A stretch of 64,000 bases of DNA. It comes from Gemmatimonas sp. (lineage in GTDB: Bacteria; Gemmatimonadota; Gemmatimonadetes; Gemmatimonadales; Gemmatimonadaceae). Under the pieces are notes generated by a model. It had not been told where the DNA came from, ran no database searches, and saw only the letters and a list, made by a program, of their open reading frames with translations. Location: assembly GCF_027531815.1 (NCBI RefSeq), contig NZ_JAPZSK010000001.1, positions 1 to 64,000 on the forward strand. The letters are read 5' to 3'. Both the position numbers and the translations under genes were made by a program. Every line of letters begins with the position of its first letter. Within the stretch, counting starts at the first letter, position 1. Positions 9,258 to 18,955 of the stretch are shown piece after piece.

Positions 9258-9743
9258 TCACTTGACCGTGATCAGCTGCACCATCCCCTTCTCGGTGTGG
9301 GCGCGGCCATCGCGCCCCGGGATGAGACAGGCCAGGATGTACCGCCCAGGCTTGAGGCGGGCCGTCAGGAACGTCTCCTGCCGGGGCGCGATGGTGGCGG
9401 TCTGGCCCAGCGTGGGCATCCACGGGGGGATGATGCCCTTCTTCTGATACATGTCGAGGAACTCGCGCAGGGTGTGGTTGCTGGGCAGCTCGAGCAGCGC
9501 CATGGCGTGCAGGTCCTGCCCGACGTTCACCAGATTGAAGGTCACCACACCGTTGGCGACCGTGGGCGGGTTGCGGAAGGCGTAGTCGGCGCCTTCCACC
9601 AGGACGTATTCCACCCGGGTGGCCGCCGGCGGGCGTGTGGCCACCGCGCCCTGCCCTTCGACGGGGGGGACAGGTGCCACCAGCGCCAGCATCAGCACCA
9701 GCGCCTTGAAGCCAACCAGATCCTTCCGGTGTGTGCTGCGCAT
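9258..9743 (-). CDS. exported cupredoxin-like protein
   Basis: This 161-residue protein has a signal peptide (about 1-30) and a beta-sandwich pattern of the plastocyanin/azurin type. Possible copper ligands are His79 (in DLHAM), Cys139, His149 and Met154 (in C-x9-H-x4-M), the order found in type 1 copper sites, although the Cys-His spacing is longer than usual. An electron-transfer or copper-binding role in the periplasm is inferred. It is convergent with the S9 peptidase, with only 18 bp between stops, and its promoter lies in the riboswitch-containing gap. Confidence 0.6.
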   Translation of the reverse strand: MRSTHRKDLVGFKALVLMLALVAPVPPVEGQGAVATRPPAATRVEYVLVEGADYAFRNPPTVANGVVTFNLVNVGQDLHAMALLELPSNHTLREFLDMYQKKGIIPPWMPTLGQTATIAPRQETFLTARLKPGRYILACLIPGRDGRAHTEKGMVQLITVK

Positions 9744-10050
9744 GGGGCATCCCTCTCGAGTCCTGCGTCGGTGGCGCGCGACCTGGGCCCATCCCGGGTC
9801 GCGCCGTCATGGTGACGGATTGCGGGTTGGTAGCATGAGATCAAGCTCCCGGTCTCGATGGGAGGTTCCCCGCGAGCTCAGCCGTAACGTGTGACGCCCC
9901 CGCCTCCGCCGCGCTGCGTACAGGTGCCAGCGGTCAAACTGTCTCTTGACTCCCCGCCGCAAATGCCGGAAGTTGCGCGTTCCTTGCTCGCCCGCACGTG
10001 TGCGGCCGGGCAAGGGAGCCCCATGGTTATTGCACGAGCTGTACCACATA
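9744..10050. other. intergenic leader region upstream of the riboswitch
   Basis: This part of the 700-bp gap holds the promoter of the minus-strand cupredoxin gene and, presumably near 9880-10000, the promoter for the riboswitch transcript. The stretch TTGACT (9956 region) could be a -35 element, but no clear partner stands out. No coding signal is seen. Confidence 0.35.
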
Positions 10051-10227
10051 GGCGCTGGTCCCCGGCTTCCTTCCCCAGGAGCCGTGGCTAAGAGGGAACC
10101 CGGTGCAATTCCGGGGTGGCCCCGCCGCTGTAAGGGACGACGAGGAAGCTTTCCGCCACTGCGCCATGTCCGGCGCGGGAAGGCCGTTTCCGAGGACGAA
10201 TCCCAAGCCAGAAGACCTGCCATCGCC
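10051..10227 (+). promoter_or_regulatory. cobalamin riboswitch
   Basis: The conserved core of the cobalamin (AdoCbl) riboswitch is present in order: a P1 arm at 10051-10059 that pairs with 10219-10227, the AAGAGGGAA element, the GGTGCAATTCCGG turn, the GCCCCGCCGCTGTAA loop, GCCACTG, GGGAAGGC, GACGAATCC, and the B12 box GCCAGAAGACCTGCC (one base from consensus). It lies about 220 nt upstream of the ribonucleotide reductase start codon, in the same direction. Binding of the coenzyme usually lowers expression of the downstream gene. The region between the aptamer and the start codon would be the expression platform. Confidence 0.93.
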
Positions 10228-10355
10228 ACGAGTCCGCGCGCCCCCTCGAGGGAGGGTTCGCCGGGGATTGCTGCGCCGCACCGTCGGGCTCCCTGCCGCC
10301 GTGTGCGCGCAGCCCCGTCCGGGCGCCCTGCAAGACATCGCCGGGAGCCCTCGAA

Positions 10356-10377
10356 GTGCCCGCGACGTCGCGGGCAC
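10356..10377 (+). promoter_or_regulatory. perfect 22-bp palindrome in the riboswitch expression platform
   Basis: A perfect GC-rich palindrome (half-site GTGCCCGCGAC) lies between the aptamer and the start codon, about 70 nt before the ATG. No T-run follows, so it is more likely part of an alternative fold that hides or frees the ribosome site (GGAG at 10434-10437) than a simple terminator. A DNA-binding site for a regulator is the other option. Confidence 0.45.
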
Positions 10378-10444
10378 CTCGGGCCACGGGAGCGTCCTCG
10401 GGGGGTGTGCAACTGTCCGGCTACTTCCCCTCTGGAGACACTGA

Positions 10445-12877
10445 ATGAGCACGTCCGTCGCGCCGCGCGCCGCATCCGAAGTCCGTTCGACCTTTGGGGG
10501 CTATGATGCCGCCGGGGTGCGCGTCATCACGGAGGTCATCAAGCGCGATGGCCGCCGGGCGCCGTGGGACCCGGAGCGCATCACGCGCGCCATCGCCCTG
10601 GCCTTCTGGGCCTCGCGCCACGACGACGCTCCCAACCCGCACGCCAACGACGCGGCGCACCGCTTCGGCCTCGGCTTCACCGAGTTCGCCGATGTCTGTG
10701 AAATCACCCAGCTCGTCGTCAACACCGTCGAGCGCAAGGCCCTCGAGCGCACCCCCACGGTCGAGGAAGTACAGGACATCGTGGAAATGATGATCGCCGC
10801 GCGCGGGCACTGGGACGTGGCCAAGCGCTACGTCATCTACCGCGCCGCCCGGGCGCAGGTGCGCCTCGCCGCGCACGGCGAAAACGGACTCCAGGACTAC
10901 ATCTTCCTCTCGCGCTACTCGCGCTATCGGGAAGAGCTCGGCCGCCGCGAAACGCCCGCCGAGGCGTTCACGCGCGTCATGGACATGCACCGCGCGCACT
11001 TCGCCGACAAGCTCGACCTGCCCGTGGCCGGCTTCGGCGGCCGTCCGCTGCGCGAGCTCATCGACGAAACGGAGGCGGCGCTGCAGCGGCGCGCCATCCT
11101 CCCCTCCATGCGCTCGCTGCAGTTCGGCGGGCAGGCCATCGAGGCCAACAACGCGCGCATGTTCAACTGCGCGTTCACGCACATGAATCGCCTCGACGCG
11201 TTCAAGGAATCGTTCTTCCTCCTCATGTCGGGCACCGGCGTGGGCTTCTCGGTGCAGAAGCATCACGTGGCGCAGCTGCCGCACTTCCCCGTGCGCGGCG
11301 CCGAGAACGACCTCGAGGTAGTGCACTACACGGTGGGCGACACCCTCGAGGGGTGGGCGGATGCGCTCGATGCGCTCATGCGCAGCTACCTCGACAACAA
11401 AAAGATCGAGTTCAACTACTCCAGCATCCGTCGTCGCGGCTCGCCGCTGAAGACCTCGGGGGGTCGCGCCCCCGGGCACATCCCGCTCAAGAAGGCGCTG
11501 TCGGCCGTCGAGCGCATGCTCGACCAGGTCTCCGGGCGCGCGCTGCGCCCCATCGAAGTGTACGACATCCTCATGCACGTCGCCGTGGCGGTGCTCTCGG
11601 GCGGCATCCGTCGCTCGGCCACCATCTGCCTCTTCTCGGCCGACGACGATGAGATGGCGGCCGCCAAGACCGGCAACTGGTTCGAGACCAACCCGCAGCG
11701 CGGCAAGTCCAACAACTCGGCCGTGCTCGTGCGCCACCAGCACACCGAGCAGGAGTTCCAGCGCCTCTTCGAGCTGCAGAAGGAGTTCGGCGAGCCGGGC
11801 TTCTACTTCGTAGACGACGTGGAGTACGGCGCCAACCCGTGCGTGGAGATCGGCCTCGCGCCCTTCGCCATCGTCGACGACGCCGCGCAGGCGAAGCTCG
11901 CCGAATACGGCATGCCCGATGTGCCGGTGGGGAGCAAGGTGAGCGGCTGGCAGATGTGCAACCTCACCACCATCAATGCCAACGCCTGCGACGACGAGGC
12001 CGGCTTCCTGGCGTGCTGCCGCGCGGCGGCGCTACTGGGCACCCTGCAGGCCGCCTACACCAACATCGGCTACCTCGGCGCCGCCACGCGCTACATCAAC
12101 GAGCGGGAGTCGCTGCTCGGCGTGTCCATCTGCGGCATCCTCGACCGCCCGTCGCTGCTGCTCAACCCGGCCGTGCTGGAGCGCGGCGCCAAGGAGTGCC
12201 TCGACACCAACGCGGCGATTGCCGAACACCTGGGCATTCCCGCCGCGGCGCGCATCACCTGCGTGAAGCCCGAGGGCACCGCCAGCCTGGTGCTGGGCGC
12301 CGGGTCGGGTATCCACCCGCATCATGCGCGTCACTACTTCCGCCGCGTGCAGACGGCGCGCACCGAGCCGCTGTATCAGTGGTTCAAGCTCAACAACCCG
12401 CACATGACCGAGGCCTCGGCGTGGGATCCCGACACGACCGACGTGATCACCTTCCCCGTGACCGCGCCGACCGATGCCATCCTGCGCAAGGACGTGGGCG
12501 CGGTGCAGTTCCTCGAGTACGTGCGCCTCGTGCAGCAGCACTGGGTAGTGGCCGGCCGTCGCCATGAGTCGCACAACCCCGGCCTGCACCACAACGTCTC
12601 CAACACGGTCACCGTGCGCGACGACGAGTGGGACGCGGTGCAGCAGTTCATCTTCGAGAACCGCGGCTACTTCACCGGCATTTCGCTGCTGCGCGAAACC
12701 GGCGACAAGGTGTACGCGCAGGCACCGCGCGAAGAGGTGACCACCGACATGGACATGGCCAAGTGGAACGCGCTCGTCTACAGCCCGGTGGACTACACCG
12801 CGCTCTGGGAAGGCACCGACATGACCACGCTGGCCGACACGGTGGCCTGCGCCGGTGGGGCGTGCGAGATCGTGTAA
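10445..12877 (+). CDS. nrdJ: adenosylcobalamin-dependent (class II) ribonucleotide reductase
   Basis: An 810-residue enzyme that reduces ribonucleotides to deoxyribonucleotides with an adenosylcobalamin-generated thiyl radical. It starts with an ATP-cone allosteric domain (about 28-135), followed by the RNR barrel with 'PSMRSLQFGG', 'NNARMFNC', 'NPCVEIGL', 'MCNLTTIN' and the phosphate-binding 'KPEGTASLVLGAGSGIHP'. The C-terminus ends with CAGGAC, the redox Cys pair that re-reduces the active site; there is no glycyl-radical motif as in class III. Residue patterns resemble the monomeric RTPR/NrdJ type. GGAG before the ATG is a good ribosome site. The cobalamin riboswitch in front is unexpected for an enzyme that itself uses cobalamin. 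Confidence 0.92.
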   Translation: MSTSVAPRAASEVRSTFGGYDAAGVRVITEVIKRDGRRAPWDPERITRAIALAFWASRHDDAPNPHANDAAHRFGLGFTEFADVCEITQLVVNTVERKALERTPTVEEVQDIVEMMIAARGHWDVAKRYVIYRAARAQVRLAAHGENGLQDYIFLSRYSRYREELGRRETPAEAFTRVMDMHRAHFADKLDLPVAGFGGRPLRELIDETEAALQRRAILPSMRSLQFGGQAIEANNARMFNCAFTHMNRLDAFKESFFLLMSGTGVGFSVQKHHVAQLPHFPVRGAENDLEVVHYTVGDTLEGWADALDALMRSYLDNKKIEFNYSSIRRRGSPLKTSGGRAPGHIPLKKALSAVERMLDQVSGRALRPIEVYDILMHVAVAVLSGGIRRSATICLFSADDDEMAAAKTGNWFETNPQRGKSNNSAVLVRHQHTEQEFQRLFELQKEFGEPGFYFVDDVEYGANPCVEIGLAPFAIVDDAAQAKLAEYGMPDVPVGSKVSGWQMCNLTTINANACDDEAGFLACCRAAALLGTLQAAYTNIGYLGAATRYINERESLLGVSICGILDRPSLLLNPAVLERGAKECLDTNAAIAEHLGIPAAARITCVKPEGTASLVLGAGSGIHPHHARHYFRRVQTARTEPLYQWFKLNNPHMTEASAWDPDTTDVITFPVTAPTDAILRKDVGAVQFLEYVRLVQQHWVVAGRRHESHNPGLHHNVSNTVTVRDDEWDAVQQFIFENRGYFTGISLLRETGDKVYAQAPREEVTTDMDMAKWNALVYSPVDYTALWEGTDMTTLADTVACAGGACEIV

Positions 12878-12988: not shown

Positions 12989-13471
12989 TCAGTGCTTCAT
13001 ACCGGTGTTGCACCCTTCCTCGAGCACTTCGAAGGCGTCGTGCAGCGCCTTCATGGCGGTCTTGAGCGCCGTATCGTCGGCCTTCGACGCCACGAGTGCG
13101 GCCACCTTCTCGGTCTCGCCTACGAGCCCCGCCTGCGCCTTCTGCAGCTCCGGCTTCTGGCACGCTGTCGGTGCCTTGGACGTCGCCACGGCCTTCGCCG
13201 ACGTGACCATGTTGCCGATCATGCCGCGCGTGGGCGCCATGTCGTTCTTGTCCTTGGCCGGGTGCCAAGTGGCCATCATGAGGCCGTGATAGGCATCCAA
13301 CTCCTTCCACGCGTTGGCCTTGGCGTCCTTGCCGTGCTGCATCTGCTTCATGTGCTCGGCGTGCATCGCCGCGTGGTCGTCCTTCTTGGCGGGCGGCTGG
13401 GTGGGCTGGGCGAAGGCAGGGGCGGATATGGAGCAGGCGGCTAGGGCCGCGAGGGCGAAGCGAAGGCGCAT
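12989..13471 (-). CDS. exported helical His/Met-containing protein, unknown
   Basis: A 160-residue protein with a clear signal peptide (cleavage after AFA near residue 21). The first mature segment holds HAAMHAEHMKQMQHG, rich in His and Met and able to bind copper or another soft metal. The remainder is predicted helical with two Cys (about residues 103 and 154). It resembles small cytochrome c'-like or four-helix periplasmic proteins but lacks a CXXCH haem motif. I do not recognise the family. It is alone, convergent with nrdJ. Confidence 0.7.
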   Translation of the reverse strand: MRLRFALAALAACSISAPAFAQPTQPPAKKDDHAAMHAEHMKQMQHGKDAKANAWKELDAYHGLMMATWHPAKDKNDMAPTRGMIGNMVTSAKAVATSKAPTACQKPELQKAQAGLVGETEKVAALVASKADDTALKTAMKALHDAFEVLEEGCNTGMKH

Positions 13472-16673: not shown

Positions 16674-17399
16674 ATGCCACTCACGCTCCGCGACGTCGGC
16701 TCCCGGGCCACGAAACTGGCCGGCATGATGGTGCCGATCGGCCTCGGCCTTGGCGCCAGCAAACTGGCGTCGCCGTACATGCCGGCGTTCACGGAGTGGG
16801 TGAATTCGCTGGGTGCGTGGGCGCCGGCGGCGTTCGTGGCGGGCTATGTGCTGGCCACGGTGTGCATGATGCCGGCGTTTCTGCTCACCATTGCCGGCGG
16901 CGCGGTCTTCGGGCTGGCGCGCGGCTCGATGCTGGTGTTCGTGGGGTCCACGATCGGCGCCGCGATTGCCTTCACGCTGGGGCGCACGGTGCTGCGCGGT
17001 TGGGTGTCGGCGCAGATTGCGAAGCATCAGACGCTGCAGATCGTCGATCGCGTGATCGGTCAGGAAGGGCTCAAGCTCATGTTCCTGTTGCGCCTATCAG
17101 GGATCGCGCCGTTCGTGCTCACCAATTACGCCATGGGCGTTACGTCGGTGTCGCTGCCCCACTTCATGCTGGCCATGCTGGGGATGATTCCCACGATCGC
17201 CACGTATACCGCCGTGGGGCAGGCCGGCGCGCAGACGCCGGGGGCGGGCGCGATTCCGTCGTGGATGCTCTGGATGGGCGTGAGCGCGGCGATCGTGCTA
17301 GCGGTGCTGGTGACCCGCATTGTGCAGAAGGCGCTGCGGGAGGCGCAGATGCGGGAGAATATGGCGGCGATGGCGCAAGACGAGCGCGTTGCCGACTGA
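16674..17399 (+). CDS. TVP38/TMEM64 (DedA-like) membrane protein
   Basis: A 241-residue inner-membrane protein with five to six hydrophobic segments and the VTT/SNARE-associated domain signature: 'PAFLLTIAGGAVFGLARGSMLVF', 'GSTIGAAIAFTLGR' and 'FLLRLSGIAPFVLTNYAMGVT'. Members are lipid scramblase- or transporter-like proteins of the DedA superfamily. The start codon follows TATATT by five bases, so this gene may be leaderless, with its promoter directly after the terminator of the M14 gene. The C-terminal tail is charged and cytoplasmic. Confidence 0.85.
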   Translation: MPLTLRDVGSRATKLAGMMVPIGLGLGASKLASPYMPAFTEWVNSLGAWAPAAFVAGYVLATVCMMPAFLLTIAGGAVFGLARGSMLVFVGSTIGAAIAFTLGRTVLRGWVSAQIAKHQTLQIVDRVIGQEGLKLMFLLRLSGIAPFVLTNYAMGVTSVSLPHFMLAMLGMIPTIATYTAVGQAGAQTPGAGAIPSWMLWMGVSAAIVLAVLVTRIVQKALREAQMRENMAAMAQDERVAD

Positions 17400-18955
17400 C
17401 GGCTGACCCGTTCAGGGTTGGGGGTCGTGGGTGGAGGGTGATGGGTGGGAGTGCACGAACTCCATATCCTCAGCGCACGACCCTGTACCCTGAACGGGGC
17501 TGCGGCCAGTCGTGCAGGGCCGATTGTCGGCGGTGCGTCGTTTGCTCGCGGAGAAGCGCGTACGACTGCCGGCACGCCCGTTCAGGGTTGGGGGTCGTGG
17601 GTGGAGGGTGATGGGTGTGTATGGGGGCGGGGGGATGCTGCGGTGACGGTGGCTGCTGCGCGGACCCTTGCTTGAAGGTTGAGCAGCATGGGGCGCAGCC
17701 GATCGATCTTCGCAAGCAGATCCTGCGCGTGCGCGGAATTCATCAATTGCGCGTCACGCAGCAGCAGCAGGTGATTGTGGGCCTCGGCCAATGACGCGAG
17801 GGCAATGCCGAGGAAATGTGCGAACTGCGCACTGGTCGTGCGCTGCGCGCCTTCGGCGATGTTCGCACCAATCGACGCGGTAGCCCGGCGCACTTGCGAT
17901 ACCAACTCCGCGTTGCCTCTGGGAACGCGCGCCGTAATGCGGATCGTGGCCACCGCCAGATCGTGCGCCTGCCGCCATACGAGGAGCCTTCGGAAATCCT
18001 GCATTCCCCACAATGGCAGCAGCAAGCCGTCAACGTGACACCACGGATGCGTCCATTGTGCTCTTCCGACGCCCCACACACCCACCACCCTGAACGCACG
18101 ACCCCATACCCTGAACGGGGCTGCGGCCAGCCGTGCAGGGCCGATTGTCGGTGGTGCGTCGTTTGCTCGCCGAGAAGCGCGTACGACTGCCGGCACGCCT
18201 GTTCAGGGTTGGGGGTCGTGGGTGGAGGGTCGTGGGTGGGAGTGCACGAACCCCATACCCTCAGCGCACGACCCTTTACCCTGAACGGGGCTGCGGCCAG
18301 CCGTGCAGGGCCGATTGTCGGTGGTGCGTCGTTTGCTCGCCGATAAGCGCGTACGACTGCCGGCACGCCCGTTCAGGGTTGGGGGGCGTGGGTGGAGGGT
18401 CGTGGGTGGGAGTGCACGAACTCCATACCCTCAGCGCACGACCCTTTACCCTGAACGGGGCTGCGGTCAGTCGTGCAGGGCCGATAGTCGGTGGTGCGTC
18501 GTTTGCTCGCCGAGAAGCGCGTACGACTGCCGGCACGCCCGTTCAGGGTTGGGAGTCGTGGGTGGAGGGTGATGGGTGGGAGTGCACGAACTCCATACCC
18601 TCAGCGCACGACCCTTTACCCTGAACGGGGCTGCGGTCAGCCGTGCAGGGCCGATTGTCGGCGGTGCGTCGTTTGCTCGCCGAGAAGCGCGTACGACTGC
18701 CGGCACGCCCGTTCAGGGTTGGGGGTCGTGGGTGGAGGGTCGTGGGTGGAGGGTCGTGGGTGGGAGTGCACGAACTCCATATCCTCAGCGCACGACCCTG
18801 TACCCTGAACGGGGCTGCGGCCAGTCGTGCAGGGCCGATTGTCGGCGGTGCGTCGTTTGCTCGCCGAGAAGCGCGTACGACTGCCGGCACGCCCGTTCAA
18901 GGTTGGGAGTCATGGGTGGAGGGTCATGGGTGGTAACTGTTGGGTGGGAACTCGT
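17400..18955. repeat. tandem array of ~170-bp palindromic repeat units
   Basis: Units start with GTTCAGGGTTGGG at 17410, 17580, 18201, 18371, 18541, 18711 and (GTTCAAGG) 18895. Spacing is exactly 170 bp except for the last unit (184 bp, with a 14-bp duplication of the GTGGAGGGTC motif) and the unit carrying a gene (621 bp). Each unit has one arm GTTCAGGGTTGGGGGTCGTG, a loop of about 40-60 bp, the opposite arm CACGACCCTNTACCCTGAAC, and a conserved 80-bp spacer with TTTGCTCGCCGAGAAGCGCG. The units differ by only a few bases, so the array is recent. It is not a CRISPR: the spacers are all the same. Confidence 0.9.
17582..18004 (-). CDS. four-helix-bundle protein (23S rRNA intervening-sequence family)
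   Basis: A 140-residue protein of the IVP/S23 four-helix-bundle family (TIGR02436): 'MQDFRRLLVWRQAHDLAV', 'RRATASIGANIAEG' and 'FAHFLGIALASLAEAHNHL' are the family hallmarks. Members were found in insertions in 23S rRNA, and a relative (Avd) works with diversity-generating retroelements; their general function is unclear. No rRNA or reverse transcriptase is nearby. The gene occupies the loop position of one repeat unit: arms at about 17580-17617 and 18083-18118 flank it as inverted repeats. Its last 15 or so residues (Pro/His/Ser-rich) and stop codon are encoded by the repeat itself. The start is the ATG at 18004, since upstream codons are repeat-derived. Confidence 0.85.
   Translation of the reverse strand: MQDFRRLLVWRQAHDLAVATIRITARVPRGNAELVSQVRRATASIGANIAEGAQRTTSAQFAHFLGIALASLAEAHNHLLLLRDAQLMNSAHAQDLLAKIDRLRPMLLNLQARVRAAATVTAASPRPHTHPSPSTHDPQP

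Follow-up and report, generated by a model that had tools for sequence, protein, structure and literature searches.

A cobalamin riboswitch upstream of a monomeric class II ribonucleotide reductase in Gemmatimonas and its possible role in controlling a reserve enzyme

The locus and the reductases of the window genome

A stretch of 64,000 nucleotides (64 kb) of contig NZ_JAPZSK010000001.1 from Gemmatimonas sp., hereafter the window, carries a cobalamin (B12) riboswitch upstream of a gene for a ribonucleotide reductase (RNR) of the B12-dependent class II (Table 1). Bacteria of the Gemmatimonas group, the hosts of this arrangement, live in soil and freshwater. In a cmscan search of the whole window the riboswitch is the sole Rfam match above threshold, and it aligns to RF00174 along model positions 1-189 of 189 with 114.9 bits (E 4.5e-28). 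With a full-length aptamer and a score above the gathering score of 31.5 bits it is a member of that family, which bears out the complete cobalamin aptamer claimed by the original prediction, a reading made from the letters of the DNA; the start given there, 10051, marked the same element, but the aptamer begins 12 nt earlier, at 10039. The aptamer recurs at 20 of the 32 related loci in named genomes, which rules out a chance or stray match. The predicted ligand is adenosylcobalamin (AdoCbl) or a broader range of corrinoids.

The controlled gene encodes a predicted member of the monomeric RTPR/NrdJm branch of class II, as distinct from dimeric NrdJ. Its best NCBIfam family is TIGR02505 (RTPR, AdoCbl-dependent ribonucleoside-triphosphate reductase) at 238.9 bits, below the curated cut-off of 340.05 bits, and the protein is therefore filed as RTPR-like and not as a TIGR02505 member. 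An N-terminal ATP-cone (PF03477) is found at residues 30-137 with 64.5 bits, while the class II insertion domain (PF21995) is marginal, at 27.2 bits against a threshold of 27.0. A model computed with AlphaFold2 from 24 relatives (with a mean of 78 in pLDDT, the model's own confidence score) has 1L1L, a monomeric B12-dependent RNR, at Foldseek rank 1 (E 9.1e-25 versus 1.4e-14 for the next PDB chain), and aligns to it with a VIA Z of 28.8 over 582 residues at a root-mean-square deviation of 3.3. A partial class Id chain, 6dqw_D, ties in Z (29.5) over a shorter alignment of 352 residues. Cysteines C242, C466 (in NPCVE), C505, C802 and C807 are invariant in all 24 rows of the sequence alignment, and the roles of thiyl radical, redox pair and tail cysteines are presumably theirs, as assigned from RTPR numbering. 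The C-terminal CxGGAC tail is present, as in 1L1L. By the sequence alignment, neither a YY radical-transfer pair nor a glycyl-radical motif occurs in the window RNR; YY is found somewhere in the sequence of five riboswitch-free relatives, and a YY pair is typical of class I alpha subunits (PMC6370689). The catalytic cysteines thus appear intact, and the sequence gives no sign of lost B12 dependence. Aptamer-bearing and aptamer-free proteins are separated by just two fixed conservative substitutions against 233 invariant columns, which makes such a loss unlikely.

The likely neighbouring genes, at 9258-9743 upstream and 12989-13471 downstream, both lie on the minus strand, and the transcript should therefore carry the RTPR-type gene alone. 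The claim of a single downstream gene stands accordingly, and the idea that the riboswitch really serves another gene of the transcript is rejected. The description of that gene as class II and NrdJ-type was right as to class, by family and fold; NrdJ proper is encoded elsewhere in the genome. A PF02867 search of the window genome (G000) finds one other RNR, a dimeric class II NrdJ at locus L003 (TIGR02504, 686.7 bits, cut-off 400) that has no riboswitch. The original prediction had called for a check for another reductase such as nrdAB: neither nrdB nor nrdD was found in G000, the small subunit of class I (PF00268) giving no match there and class III (PF13597, NRDD) none in any of the 17 genomes searched, but the riboswitch-free dimeric NrdJ was.

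The NrdJ gene at L003:1207-4896 (G000 C7:139734-142268) is interrupted by an intein between the halves of the catalytic domain. Its frame is 1260 aa long, with intein-containing helicase and gyrase families matching residues about 286-603, and NrdJ frames in several congeners are about 880-930 aa.

RF00174 occurs in only two places in G000, the RNR leader and a site before a BtuF-like B12 uptake gene. The corrin-ring gene CbiC was found in none of 24 genomes, while the same search was positive in 7 of 14 control genomes. From this one marker gene, as distinct from a pathway reconstruction, bacteria of the Gemmatimonas group probably import B12.

Distribution of the aptamer and the reductases in relatives

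Across 30 genomes of the genus, in which the coordinates of gene and aptamer were compared by hand, the RTPR-type gene is present in 21, and in all 21 an aptamer of 107-124 bits lies about 185-220 nt upstream on the same strand. Neither the gene nor a strong aptamer is found in 8 of the 9 other genomes. The congener G022, where a further listed match is only the ATP-cone of NrdA, encodes a class I enzyme, with NrdA at 645 bits and NrdB at 307 bits, behind a cobalamin aptamer of 125 bits. Dimeric NrdJ accompanies the RTPR-type gene in 18 of 21 genomes, and in 12 of 12 that are at least 90% complete; the genomes lacking an NrdJ match (G063, G072 and G078) are 57-84% complete. In neither the genus survey nor a sample of 59 genomes of the family does an NrdJ gene have an RF00174 match nearby, again by hand comparison of coordinates. 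The aptamers of nrdA and of the RTPR-type gene share ~75-81% identity over aligned positions and are no closer to each other than to the BtuF-type aptamers, so that descent from one ancestor is not claimed for them.

In one scan of GTDB contigs, 32 related loci were recovered. The aptamer is directly upstream in 20, which comprise all those at 76% identity or above, and absent at 12, those at 48-60% identity; two of the latter, with 3 nt (L066) and 358 nt (L070) of upstream sequence, test little. A tree of 33 proteins places the 21 aptamer-bearing rows, the window included, in one group with 100/100 support, which is consistent with a single gain of the riboswitch. The riboswitch-free relatives (L059, L060, L062-L064, L066-L068, L070, L071, L073 and L074) come from Acidobacteriota, Verrucomicrobiota, Kiritimatiellota and other Gemmatimonadaceae, a scatter that suggests horizontal transfer of the enzyme.

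Within the family sample the RTPR-type gene occurs in 7 of 59 genomes. Three of these (G000, G048 and G050) have the aptamer, and four (G003, G018, G027 and G036) lack it in the flanking sequence examined. An RNR matching PF02867 was not found in G003, G027 and G036 (95, 74 and 90% complete), where a switchless RTPR-type enzyme may be the sole RNR; this would fit a switch that belongs to a reserve role. Weak PF00268 matches (33-50 bits, in frames of 317-700 aa) occur in G018, G036, G033, G052, G008 and G015, and are perhaps not true NrdB but R2-like proteins with a ferritin fold. Two genomes with such matches also have a riboswitch-free RTPR-type RNR.

Two further aptamer sites were noted. A 116-bit cobalamin aptamer at L016 (G039 C236:8038-8256) lies in a genome of the family without an RTPR-type gene, and no RNR was recognised in the adjoining short open reading frames (ORFs). 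On contig C491 of G008, two divergent aptamers, at 11146-11340 (minus strand) and 11436-11638 (plus strand), are separated by ~95 nt.

Leader anatomy and the direction of the switch

The leader was compared in 22 sequences, some of them near-identical, with a formal alignment of 19 rows. Its most prominent feature is a predicted long-range helix between segments A and D, which appears in the minimum-free-energy (MFE) fold of all 22 leaders with 12-17 pairs (16 in the window). Shuffled sequences average 2-5 such pairs, and the observed number is reached in 0-5 of 50 shuffles (3 of 50 for the window). A covariation test yields no proof of the helix because both strands barely vary; support comes from these pair counts against shuffles. 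A local hairpin at 10243-10256 offers segment A an alternative pairing.

In cobalamin riboswitches, a kissing loop between L5 and L13 links the aptamer to the expression platform. The leader has the CCCCG of L5 and, downstream of it, a CGGGG that never varies; the two could form this contact, as a candidate pairing whose strands barely vary and which, as a pseudoknot, lies outside the scoring of the fold program. Compensating changes on both sides affect four pairs of hairpin H2, which is followed by 4-8 T within 10 nt in 21 leaders and by 2 T in the window. In many leaders other than that of the window, the 5′ arm of H2, before its 3′ arm exists, is predicted to pair upstream, often with CGGGG, as would an antiterminator.

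Table 1. Features of the riboswitch-reductase locus in the window
Feature	Position	Strand	Basis
Candidate promoter TTGACT-17-GAAGTT	9946..9974	+	Inferred by eye from upstream sequence of 14 leaders
5′ leader hairpin, CUUGC...GCAAG type	9977..10019	+	Fold -28.6 kcal/mol, z -1.68; weak
Complete cobalamin riboswitch aptamer, with L5 CCCCG at 10120-10124	10039..10238	+	RF00174, 114.9 bits
Segment A (GCGCGCCCCCTCGAGG); hardly varies; pairs with D as the 5′ strand of the long-range helix	10236..10251	+	19-row alignment
GCCGGGGAT; CGGGG (10262-10266) invariant, with G25-G31 invariant in the alignment; candidate L13 partner of L5	10260..10268	+	19-row alignment
Hairpin H1	10270..10313	+	MFE; two basal pairs changed on both sides in consensus
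Hairpin H2, in the place of the terminator-like hairpin of relatives; U-tract lost in the window	10321..10350	+	
Hairpin H3	10350..10383	+	-25.6 kcal/mol
Segment D (CCTCGGGGGGTGTGC); partner of A in the long-range helix (3′ strand); 23 nt ahead of ribosome-binding site	10396..10410	+	
Ribosome-binding site GGAG	10434..10437	+	Sequence
RTPR/NrdJm-type RNR, 810 aa, ATG start	10445..12877	+	

For the ligand-bound state a stand-in was folded in which segment A was fixed in its local hairpin and CGGGG was blocked, both constraints being chosen by hand. In 21 of 22 leaders this ligand-like fold makes the start region (-20 to +9) less open, the mean falling from 0.57 to 0.44. As the constraints were hand-chosen, the modelled difference favours an OFF switch weakly. 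Repression by the ligand, rather than activation, is thus inferred from precedent, from the nrdAB parallel in G022 and, weakly, from the anatomy of the leader.

Upstream of the aptamer, elements of the form TTGAC[AT] and GGAAGTT/GGAACTT recur in 14 leaders, as judged by eye. A promoter scan of the window scored none, while one was scored at the corresponding place in L057. The 5′ leader hairpin, whose fold is equalled by 12 of 200 shuffles, recurs by eye at the same position in relatives with differing sequence. It may stabilise the transcript or belong to P1, and closure of the aptamer's P1 with this hairpin is visible by eye in some leaders. No NrdR boxes are claimed, the consensus showing at best 6 mismatches of 16 in 14 leaders and 7 upstream of NrdJ.

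Elsewhere in the window, the intergenic interval 17296-18700 contains repeats: a 274-nt unit in four copies, spaced by 170 nt at the end and with two copies 95-96% alike, and a 55-nt unit in five copies, some in inverted orientation. ORFs on both strands within these repeats encode the same repeated peptide.

A reserve reductase, its alternatives and known systems

Cobalamin riboswitches are taken to mark genes for B12 supply or B12-free substitutes for B12-using enzymes. The B12-using class of the RNR described here and a pairing kept clade-wide therefore require either an exception to this rule or some unrecognised property of the enzyme. The original prediction saw a paradox, in that a riboswitch lowering a B12-dependent enzyme when B12 is present makes little sense, and offered two ways out, an ON switch or a limit on enzyme excess. 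The pairing of a riboswitch with an RNR of a B12 family is real, but the second RNR had been overlooked. Given a riboswitch-free NrdJ in the same genome and nrdAB behind an aptamer in G022, the paradox becomes the known isozyme logic, with a B12-using isozyme in the controlled position.

The reading favoured over both ways out, with confidence evenly balanced, is that an OFF switch responding to AdoCbl or another corrinoid represses a reserve monomeric class II RNR and releases it in B12 shortage. OFF control of a reserve enzyme is preferred because repression has precedent and because a strong aptamer stands before an accessory RNR in G022. When AdoCbl is plentiful, dimeric NrdJ would make the deoxyribonucleotides (dNTPs) and the leader would hold the RTPR-type gene off. 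At low AdoCbl the aptamer would empty, the long-range A-D helix would form and the start region would open; in relatives with a U-tract, termination at H2 would be avoided. The RTPR-type enzyme would then be made alongside the riboswitch-controlled uptake system, and its benefit could lie in a lower requirement for AdoCbl, in the use of another cobamide, or simply in more holoenzyme. It would fill the part played by nrdAB in G022 and in Streptomyces. A more specific form of this proposal, in which dimeric NrdJ serves cofactor plenty and the derepressed RTPR-type enzyme is tuned to scarcity by much tighter AdoCbl binding or by acceptance of other cobamides, can be put forward only tentatively. 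One viral NrdJm, a different protein from the window RNR, needed no more than equimolar B12 (PMC6459318); this would fit a role in scarcity and has no bearing on the window protein.

Several observations count against a repressed reserve enzyme. The direction of the switch is drawn from precedent and from a modelled state constrained by hand, and between the modelled states the openness of the start codon is unchanged (0.62 versus 0.61) while that of the ribosome-binding site shifts in both directions. Scanning the window and L057 for terminators gave no hit, and the window's own H2 lacks a U-tract. Among the family genomes, G018 has both RNRs and no aptamer by its RTPR-type gene, and G050 (91% complete) has the aptamer while NrdJ was not found in it. 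Finally, a reserve of the same cofactor class offers no obvious relief once AdoCbl is gone.

An ON switch, by which AdoCbl binding would activate the B12-dependent RNR and add enzyme only when its cofactor is present, is unlikely, although it makes simple sense for such an enzyme. The platform is unusual, in that a domain of several hairpins is closed by the A-D helix in 22 of 22 leaders, and the free-state fold contains the terminator-like H2; moreover, genes of B12-dependent pathways can be B12-induced by an antisense or small-RNA route in Listeria and Enterococcus (PMC11575231, PMC4991794). Against this, 38 of 86 cobalamin riboswitch reporters were functional and all 38 are reported as repressing, 37 of them with a predicted terminator (PMC9600662), the strong aptamer before nrdAB in the same genus is expected to be OFF, and in 21 of 22 leaders the ligand-like fold closes the start region instead of opening it, a weak point.

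Control by product demand, in which an OFF switch trims excess apo-enzyme or AdoCbl use and the enzyme has no special low-B12 property, is slightly less likely still. More apo-enzyme would capture more of a scarce cofactor by mass action, and the 38 repressing riboswitches include that of Veillonella parvula mutA, by name the gene of a B12-dependent mutase (PMC9600662). Such control, however, leaves two things unexplained, the switchless housekeeping NrdJ in every genome examined and the swap with nrdAB in G022. An RTPR-type enzyme that has become B12-independent through another radical source, under a classical OFF switch, is very hard to credit: only regulatory logic and the nrdAB parallel speak for it, whereas 24 of 24 rows keep the catalytic cysteines, the model has the 1L1L fold, no YY pair, glycyl-radical motif or, in G000, NrdB occurs, and no consistent partner gene was noticed.

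Should one of the two class II RNRs indeed serve cofactor plenty and the other be tuned to scarcity, they would be the first known case, as far as the open-licence literature shows, of isozymes switched by a cofactor common to both; there, B12 switches so far exchange a B12-using enzyme for a B12-free one. The system allows the existence of a second isozyme reserved for cofactor scarcity to be tested directly. With nrdAB of a congener under its own strong aptamer, the genus provides a natural comparison of the ways in which a B12-importing bacterium safeguards DNA synthesis.

The individual parts are of known kinds. The open-licence literature searched yielded no description of a class II RNR preceded by a cobalamin riboswitch, or of a pair of riboswitch-bearing and riboswitch-free class II RNRs, and an earlier mention of the former or listing of the latter is possible. 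According to one article, in loose terms, control by a B12 riboswitch is usual for "some ribonucleotide reductases" and for other B12-dependent enzymes, with Vitreschak 2003 and Borovok 2006 as its sources (PMC5962746).

Among characterised proteins, the Lactobacillus leichmannii RTPR (1L1L) shares the monomeric class II fold, the catalytic cysteines and the CxGGAC tail with the window RNR, which differs in being ~20-24% identical to it in structural alignment, in its N-terminal ATP-cone and in its sub-cut-off TIGR02505 score. The Thermus virus NrdJm is likewise a monomeric class II RNR by description (PMC6459318). V. parvula mutA offers a repressing cobalamin riboswitch before what is by name a B12-dependent mutase subunit; it is not an RNR, and no isozyme pair is described in the part consulted (PMC9600662). 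In delta-proteobacteria, B12 elements precede nrdDG, for which the same isozyme logic with NrdJ as partner has been proposed (PMC545781), the difference being that the controlled enzyme there is the B12-independent class III. In Streptomyces coelicolor, nrdABS is B12-controlled beside NrdJ as the principal RNR (Borovok 2006, cited in PMC4991794). There, too, a cobalamin riboswitch stands before an accessory RNR while the main one is a class II NrdJ, but the controlled enzyme is the B12-free class Ia, in contrast to the class II enzyme of the window; G022 does match the Streptomyces arrangement. The window system thus has the arrangement of the nrdABS and nrdDG type, a riboswitch on an accessory RNR beside a riboswitch-free NrdJ, while its controlled enzyme is of class II by family and fold and not of class I or III: it works like the B12-repressed, B12-independent RNR isozymes without being one of them.

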